Origin: a bacterium
GTDB lineage: Bacteria; Thermosulfidibacterota; Thermosulfidibacteria; Thermosulfidibacterales; JALWSI01
Assembly (NCBI GenBank): GCA_027080315.1
Contig: JALWSI010000017.1
Coordinates: 1-9,250, forward strand
Length of the DNA stretch: 9,250 bases
Direction of reading: 5' to 3'
Made by a program: the position numbers and the translations under genes. How positions within the stretch are numbered: the first letter of the stretch is position 1; every line of letters begins with the position of its first letter. Below, piece by piece: positions 3,001-6,293 of the stretch. Below the pieces are notes generated by a model. It worked only from the letters and a program-made list of their open reading frames with translations. It was not told where the DNA came from and ran no database searches.

Positions 3001-3294
3001 TCACCACCAACCATAGCGATAACGGCGGTGATGGTAGCCATGGCGATGGTGATGATGGTGGTGATAACCAGAGCTATAACCAAAACCCCACCATCCCGCA
3101 GAGTATGAGGGATAGTGATAAAGGGGGTAACCGTAAGCAGGAGCAATGGCCACCGGATAACATCTGTAAATCACAGTGGGATGATACCCATAGTAGAAAC
3201 CCCTGTAGTATCCACCATTGTAGTAACCACCGCCAAAGGTCACCGCCCAGCCCAGCATGATCATGAAGGCCACCATCAAACCCTTCTTTCTCAT
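3001..3294 (-). CDS. exported Tyr/Gly/His-rich low-complexity protein
   Basis: A 97-residue protein. It begins with a short basic n-region and hydrophobic stretch typical of a Sec signal peptide (MRKKGLMVAFMIMLGWAVTF). The mature part is nearly all aromatic, Gly and His: repeated GGYY/GFYYGY units, then proline/tyrosine segments, then a tail with six consecutive histidines followed by RHGYHHRRYRYGWW. I count 19 Tyr and 11 His. The His cluster could bind Ni, Zn or Cu, and the composition would suit a surface or envelope structural protein; neither is shown. The frame stays open to a GTG at 3315, but the ribosome binding site GGGGAGGTG lies inside that extension, so the ATG at 3294 is the real start. 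It has its own promoter at 3373-3401. No family is recognised. Confidence 0.72.
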   Translation of the reverse strand: MRKKGLMVAFMIMLGWAVTFGGGYYNGGYYRGFYYGYHPTVIYRCYPVAIAPAYGYPLYHYPSYSAGWWGFGYSSGYHHHHHHRHGYHHRRYRYGWW

Positions 3295-3372
3295 ATACCG
3301 CTCACCTCCCCTCACTGGTGAATGGTTCTGCCTCTATGAAGAATCTCTAAAAAGCGCCGCCCTTTGTAATTT

Positions 3373-5078: not shown

Positions 5079-5120
5079 TTTGGTCTGGACCAAATCTGAC
5101 CAGACCCTCTTCTTTATTTT
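5079..5120 (+). promoter_or_regulatory. two mutually exclusive hairpins with T-rich tail
   Basis: Two overlapping inverted repeats share the same bases. TTTGGTC/GACCAAA (5079-5094) has a 2-nt centre, and GGTCTGG/CCAGACC (5082-5106) has an 11-nt loop. The second is followed on the plus strand by a pyrimidine-rich CTCTTCTTTATTTT (5107-5120), so it resembles a terminator and the first a competing structure. It could end transcription from upstream, act as an attenuator for the ADP-ribosylglycohydrolase downstream, or be an operator for the minus-strand 62-residue gene. The sequence alone does not decide. Confidence 0.4.
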
Positions 5121-5165
5121 AACACTTACGAAACTTAAACCTTGAAATGCAAAATGATCAAAATC

Positions 5166-5194
5166 ACCCCTTTACTTTTACGCCCTAAAGGGGT
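5166..5194 (+). promoter_or_regulatory. 9-bp stem-loop in upstream region of glycohydrolase
   Basis: ACCCCTTTA (5166-5174) and TAAAGGGGT (5186-5194) form a perfect 9-bp stem around an 11-nt loop. It lies about 165 nt before the chosen start of the ADP-ribosylglycohydrolase. Its right arm contains AAAGGGG, which resembles a degenerate ribosome binding site. On the minus strand it is followed by GATTTTGATCATTTT, so it might also terminate minus-strand transcription. Confidence 0.45.
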
Positions 5195-5262
5195 AGGTTT
5201 GCAAAGAGAGGTTTATTAAAGAGTTGGGCTTAAAAGCTTTTCAAAGAGATTACAGAACAAGC

Positions 5263-5418
5263 CCAAGGAGGTGCATTTGAGCCAAAAGCCTTCTTTGATG
5301 GAGAGATTCTTAAAGGCGCTTATGGACATGGCAAATAGAATAAAACCAAGGAGGTGTGTTTTGAGCAAAGACTCTTCTTTAATAGACAAATTCTTAGGTG
5401 CGTTTCTGGGCATGGCAA
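5263..5418 (+). repeat. tandem duplication of RBS plus start region
   Basis: Copy 1 (5263-5334) and copy 2 (5346-5418) align over ~73 nt at roughly three-quarters identity with a period of 83-84 nt. Both begin CCAAGGAGGTG, have a TTG start (5277 and 5361) at 5-6 nt spacing, and then similar codons: LSQKPSLMERFLKALMDMAN versus LSKDSSLIDKFLGAFLGMAI. The two are in one open frame. A more decayed third copy may begin near 5187 (AAAGGGGTAGGTTTGCAAAG, TTG at 5199), but its frame is stopped at 5217. Confidence 0.75.
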
Positions 5419-6293
5419 TAGGCGATGCCCTGGGAGCCCCGCTGGAGTTCAAACGACCGGGAGAGTTTGAAGAGGTTACAGGTTTCACTGAGGGAGGTAT
5501 TCACCACATTCCCAAGGGTTGCTGGACAGACGACACCTCAATGGCCCTCTGTCTGGCAGAGAGCCTGATTGAGTGCAACGGCTTTGATCCTGAAGACCAG
5601 ATGAAACGCTACGTGAGGTGGTGGAAAGAAGGTTATCTCTCTCCTGTGGGCTTCTGTTTTGACATAGGCACCACCGTCTCAATGGCTTTGAGCACCTTTC
5701 AGAGCACAGGAGAGCCCTACGCAGGTTCCACGGATCCCTACAGCGCAGGAAACGGTTCTCTCATGCGACTTGCCCCTGTGCCTCTCTACTACCACCGGGA
5801 TCCCCAAAAGGCCATTGAGATGTCAGGCGAAAGCTCTAAAACCACCCATGGGGCAGACACCTGCATAGACGCCTGTAGGTACTTTGGAGGGCTGATAGCG
5901 GGAGCGGTGATGGGTGTTGACAAGGCCACCCTCCTCTCTCCGGGCTGGAGGCCAGATGGCAGAACCTGGCAGCAGAACGAGCTTCACCCCGAGATCTGGG
6001 AGATCGCTCAGGGCAGCTTCAAGACAAAGTCACCGCCTCAGATAGAGGGAAGCGGCTACGTTGTGAGATCACTGGAAGCAGCCCTGTGGGCCTTTTACAA
6101 AGGAGGAGACCTTGAAGAGAGTGTGCTGCTGGCGGTGAATCTGGGAGAAGACGCAGACACCACGGGCGCAGTCTGTGGCCAGCTTGCAGGGGCCTATTAC
6201 GGAAAAAAGGGCATACCCAAAAGGCTAATAAACGGCCTGTACGAAAGGCTCATTGTGGAGTACATGGCTGAGAGACTGTACAGGGTATCATAA
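5361..6293 (+). CDS. ADP-ribosylglycohydrolase family protein (DraG-like)
   Basis: A 310-residue ADP-ribosylglycohydrolase, the family that removes ADP-ribose from arginine-modified proteins such as nitrogenase reductase (DraG) or from other ADP-ribosylated substrates. It should be a cytoplasmic, dinuclear Mg/Mn enzyme. Visible landmarks: GAFLGMAIGDALGAPLEF (residues 13-30, with E29), WTDDT (55-59), FDIGTT with D101, SAGNGSLMR (128-136), H163, and GEDADTTG (262-269). E29, T56, D57, D58, D101, D264, D266 and T267 correspond to the metal ligands known in DraG, so it should be active. I chose the TTG at 5361 because AAGGAGG precedes it by 6 nt and the family's N-terminus begins there. An in-frame TTG at 5277, with an equally good site, would add 28 residues derived from a duplication. 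No nitrogenase gene is near and the substrate is unknown. Confidence 0.92.
   Translation: MSKDSSLIDKFLGAFLGMAIGDALGAPLEFKRPGEFEEVTGFTEGGIHHIPKGCWTDDTSMALCLAESLIECNGFDPEDQMKRYVRWWKEGYLSPVGFCFDIGTTVSMALSTFQSTGEPYAGSTDPYSAGNGSLMRLAPVPLYYHRDPQKAIEMSGESSKTTHGADTCIDACRYFGGLIAGAVMGVDKATLLSPGWRPDGRTWQQNELHPEIWEIAQGSFKTKSPPQIEGSGYVVRSLEAALWAFYKGGDLEESVLLAVNLGEDADTTGAVCGQLAGAYYGKKGIPKRLINGLYERLIVEYMAERLYRVS

Follow-up and report, generated by a model that had tools for sequence, protein, structure and literature searches.

Tandem duplication of the translation start region of a bacterial ADP-ribosylglycohydrolase gene

Our results establish that the start region of an ADP-ribosylglycohydrolase gene is duplicated in direct tandem within the window, as we call the whole 9,250-nucleotide stretch of DNA analysed here. 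A degenerate upstream copy (copy 1, 5255–5339, + strand), delimited by its alignment with copy 2 and by a Tandem Repeats Finder (TRF) array, is followed directly by copy 2 (5338–5422, + strand), the enzyme's own start region, whose position equals that of orthologue N-termini. We favor, as the probable explanation, a single small tandem duplication after which the upstream copy has drifted as protein while keeping a perfect Shine-Dalgarno block, both starts being probably usable. In such a scenario some 83–84 nt, comprising the ribosome-binding site and the first 19–20 codons, would have been copied once, head to tail. The downstream copy would have stayed the start of the enzyme, and the upstream copy, freed from protein constraint, would have drifted, with compensating 1-nt indels keeping the present frame. 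Given the intact upstream Shine-Dalgarno block and TTG, ribosomes would probably initiate at both places, with the shorter form as the likely main product. The upstream copy has the look of a remnant left by a small, commonplace duplication, not of a new device, and the locus offers a clean small example of how the one-step duplication of a start creates a second ribosome-binding site and, along with it, an extension able to drift freely.

When the two copies were aligned locally, 64 of 85 columns were identical. The alignment scored 61, whereas 1000 dinucleotide-preserving shuffles averaged 14.8 and never exceeded 23, and TRF reported an array at 5263–5418 with a period of 84 and 76% matches; the two tandem copies of period 83–84 nt described in the original prediction are thus confirmed. 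The likeness reaches beyond the ribosome-binding site, where 5277–5345 aligned with 5361–5435 scored 47 against a shuffle maximum of 25, so that the adjacent copies are alike beyond chance with the functional motifs excluded too and the duplication survives this check. As had also been described, each copy carries an identical CCAAGGAGGTG, a TTG start and similar codons in one open frame, about 19 of which can be aligned, and copy 1 has lost the GMAIGDALG core of the enzyme, reading DMANRIK. The Shine-Dalgarno sites lie 83 nt apart and the TTG codons 84 nt apart, a difference due to two compensating 1-nt indels, one preceding the TTG and the other following codon 19, which leave both starts in frame. 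Read without its extra A near 5334–5336, copy 1 would continue GCA ATA GAA TAA and end in a stop, so the fusion of copy 1 to the enzyme frame depends on the indel at that place. The copies adjoin directly, and the junction holds no trace of a further gene. The array is the only one of its kind in the 1.84-Mb assembly, which rules out a repeat element, and among the start regions screened over 134 kb of the source genome no other came near the score of the duplication.

A third, decayed copy had been proposed near 5187, and this part of the original prediction did not hold. The interval 5170–5262 scored 16 against either copy, where shuffles average about 15 and where 370 and 392 of 1000 shuffles equalled it. 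The apparent likeness arises from an unrelated hairpin: in a local inverted repeat of 5159–5174 with 5186–5201, AAAGGGG near 5187 forms the 3′ arm. This inverted repeat (CAAAATCACCCCTTTA / TAAAGGGGTAGGTTTG, 5159–5201) lies about 60 nt 5′ of the duplicated start and would fold as a stable hairpin within the predicted leader.

The open reading frame downstream of the duplication encodes an ADP-ribosylglycohydrolase. The enzyme body (5361–6293, + strand) matches Pfam family PF03747 over its full length (E 5e-84), with 282.8 bits against a gathering score of 26.2 and profile positions 1–287 of 287 covered, and the nearest solved chain is that of another ADP-ribosylglycohydrolase (PDB 2cwc, E 3.5e-78). 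Like the members of PF03747 (DraG / Tri1 / ARH), the enzyme contains the acidic motifs WTDDTS and GEDADTT, within which we take TDDT and DADT to be the conserved metal-site motifs of the family; in a 23-sequence alignment T84, D85, D86 and T87 as well as D292, A293, D294 and T295 are invariant or nearly so. It differs from the family in its extra 28-residue N-terminal extension, the product of the duplication. Scores stayed below the equivalog cut-offs for Tri1 (ADP-ribosylarginine hydrolase, NF041672; 266.6 of 490 bits) and for DraG (TIGR02662; 149.8 of 337 bits). The gene is single-copy in the source assembly (1.84 Mb, 253 contigs). The phylum comprises only nine genomes, and among the 8 others, which we compared for homologues, distant ones occur in 2, none above 37% identity. 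Better relatives, with up to about 61% identity, come from scattered phyla and from plasmids, a distribution that suggests horizontal spread of the gene. A viral, phage or plasmid origin of the sequence was considered and rejected: relatives on phages and plasmids are scattered widely and share no more than 61% identity, and a viral scan returned a 24-residue match only.

Orthologues identify which of the two starts belongs to the enzyme. In 22 orthologue proteins (47–60% identity) the N-terminus coincides with TTG 5361 or lies a few residues away, and no counterpart of the 28 residues of copy 1 is present in any of them, which makes copy 2 the native start of the enzyme and copy 1 the addition. 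The 28-residue extension derived from copy 1 (LSQKPSLMERFLKALMDMANRIKPRRCV, 5277–5360, + strand) could have been an ordinary conserved domain of the orthologues, the alternative that had been set against a duplication at the outset; 0 of the 22 carry it, and the duplication stands. Neither a conserved long form nor an orthologue bearing the duplication was found among these 22 proteins, and the 8 other genomes of the phylum hold no close orthologue. In an AlphaFold2 model of the long, 338-aa form the fold of the enzyme is retained (mean pLDDT 92.7, pTM 0.88), and the extension is rendered as a lower-confidence helix over residues 7–20 (pLDDT about 73) joined by a floppy linker in which residues 26–29 fall below pLDDT 50; so modelled, it does not resemble a domain added to the enzyme. 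Its amphipathic character would be expected of a sequence copied from the enzyme's first helix, and the extension has no detectable role and presumably no function.

The two candidate start sites lie in a single frame that remains open to 6293. Shine-Dalgarno block 1 (CCAAGGAGGTG, 5263–5273, + strand) is fully complementary to the 16S rRNA tail (duplex −15.1 kcal/mol) and stands, with 5 nt between GGAGG and TTG, before an upstream candidate start (TTG 5277–5279, + strand) that would yield a 338-aa long form. Block 2 (CCAAGGAGGTG, 5346–5356, + strand; duplex −15.3 kcal/mol) stands, with 6 nt between GGAGG and TTG, before the downstream TTG (5361–5363, + strand), likely the ancestral and main start, which gives the 310-aa form. 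The description of these as nearly equal initiation sites is right for their Shine-Dalgarno energies and fails for predicted mRNA structure: folding of ±35 nt gives −14.2 kcal/mol at start 1 versus −8.3 kcal/mol at start 2, and the mean unpaired probability over four contexts is 0.28–0.33 versus 0.42–0.45. Start 1 thus lies in the stronger predicted structure, and of the two starts the prediction favors the downstream one. With the upstream Shine-Dalgarno block intact, dual initiation, with production of both the 338-aa and the 310-aa forms, is plausible, the 310-aa form likely being the main product. This carries a warning for annotation, since the longest ORF (340 aa) begins at an in-frame GTG (5271) that falls within Shine-Dalgarno block 1 and is probably not the main product, and start callers may pick either site. 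A consensus scan found no sigma-70 promoter 5′ of the gene on the + strand; its two hits are on the minus strand, are mutual copies within the repeat and are near the number expected by chance. A perfect 8-nt inverted repeat (TTGGGCTT / AAGCCCAA, 5223–5266) reaches with its 3′ arm the initial bases of Shine-Dalgarno block 1; copy 2 has AAAACC at the place of that arm and lacks the repeat.

The manner in which copy 1 has changed is that of a sequence released from selection on its protein. A comparison across 19 codons shows 14 differences in 57 nucleotides and 10 in 19 residues (NG86 dN 0.34 and dS 0.13, values that are imprecise with so few synonymous sites); when copy 2 is substituted at random, 9.0 ± 1.4 residue changes are expected under neutrality, against the 10 observed. 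The protein sequence of copy 1 therefore shows no sign of constraint. Against a reading of pure drift, the intact Shine-Dalgarno block and the open frame are mild hints of retained translation. The 11-nt block of copy 1 is intact where a quarter of the rest has changed (P 0.036), with a longest-run statistic for the unchanged stretch that is unremarkable (P 0.63). Among simulated neutral copies 39% contain a stop and 61% do not, so the open frame is mild evidence only.

These hints bear on the idea that the double translation-initiation leader is itself under selection, either for higher enzyme output or for two isoforms with different properties, which we regard as possible and rather unlikely. 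Such selection would be consistent with two identical and complete Shine-Dalgarno blocks and an open frame. Engineered leaders in Bacillus licheniformis that, as here, repeat ribosome-binding site and start units before one gene give one band per site and an output that rises with the number of sites (PMC9723656), and pairs of in-frame N-terminal proteoforms documented in Salmonella come, as they would here, from one ORF with two in-frame starts and their Shine-Dalgarno sites (PMC11005335). However, of the spacings of 12–24 nt between Shine-Dalgarno sites tried in the engineered leaders only 15–21 nt was effective (PMC9723656), whereas the sites in the window are 83 nt apart; in addition, start 1 is the more structured, and the extension changes neutrally and is not conserved. 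The window's case also differs from the engineered leaders in being natural, diverged and limited to two sites, and from the proteoform pairs in that its second, predicted site is a copy of the first. It resembles both in anatomy, use of the second start being possible. For a decoy site or functional isoforms, both of which had been raised, the positive evidence is the intact Shine-Dalgarno block (P about 0.04), and we find none beyond it.

A further suggestion in the original prediction was the scar of a gene duplication followed by deletion. The notion of a scar is the best supported of those offered, and a single small duplication is the simpler route to the same product. A duplication of the whole gene with later loss of the first copy's body, which judging from the junctions would be expected to leave an identical end sequence, is in our estimation quite unlikely: there is no spacer and no 3′ remnant of a gene, the genome lacks a second homologue, and two events are needed where, given a duplicate start with no remnant between the copies, one suffices.

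The two copies also offer opportunities for RNA pairing. Each Shine-Dalgarno block can pair with CTTCTTT, codons 5–7 of the same copy, and site 2 has the CTTCTTT in copy 1 as a further possible partner; one can thus envision a translational attenuator in which ribosomes that have initiated at site 1 would control whether site 2 is active. Predicted hairpins at 5264–5297 (−12.5 kcal/mol; z −2.4 on 38 nt chosen after the fact) and 5348–5380 (−8.2 kcal/mol) fit this idea, as does the pairing of the sites, which was matched or surpassed by 13 and 40 of 500 downstream-shuffled controls. However, the stems were selected after the fact, the 135-nt region as a whole is no more stable than shuffles (z 0.16), the pairing probabilities in context are low, cross-pairing between copies arises automatically from any duplication, and copy 1 is fused in frame and provides no separate leader ORF. 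An Rfam search of the region was without match, which also argues against a riboswitch or other known RNA. The pairing is weak, and we do not claim an attenuator, which we consider very improbable. The broader thought that duplicating a start region makes a natural two-site switch, in which the upstream TTG would add an amphipathic helix and stems between Shine-Dalgarno and anti-Shine-Dalgarno sequences of the two copies would set downstream initiation, strikes us as a long shot.

The single small duplication that we favor has a parallel elsewhere. Our search of the open-access literature found no published natural duplication of a Shine-Dalgarno or start region, and start-region duplications were screened for in 318 kb of relatives' loci. 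In locus L045, from a Phycisphaeraceae bin of a different phylum, a 38-nt duplication (about 1598–1715; 33 of 38 identical) involves the N-terminal codons of an ADP-ribosylglycohydrolase, the extra copy lying 79 nt 5′ of the native codons and separated from them by a stop codon. As in the window, N-terminal codons have been copied about 80 nt upstream; unlike the copy in the window, that of L045 lacks a ribosome-binding site and is ended by the stop. The occurrence of an unrelated duplication at the same place indicates that small duplications of this kind arise independently, need no function and look ordinary.

Elsewhere in the window, at 5082–5119 and 3′ of a DUF4143 ATPase gene, an inverted repeat (GGTCTGG / CCAGACC) encloses an 11-nt loop and precedes CTCTTCTTTATTTT; the element reads like a candidate intrinsic terminator on the + strand, with a loop longer than our terminator scan allows. 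Two adjacent ORFs on the minus strand (342–1715) encode proteins of 220 and 232 aa, neither with a Pfam match, and a small protein encoded at 3001–3315, also on the minus strand, combines a hydrophobic start with a tail rich in glycine, tyrosine and histidine that includes a histidine run.
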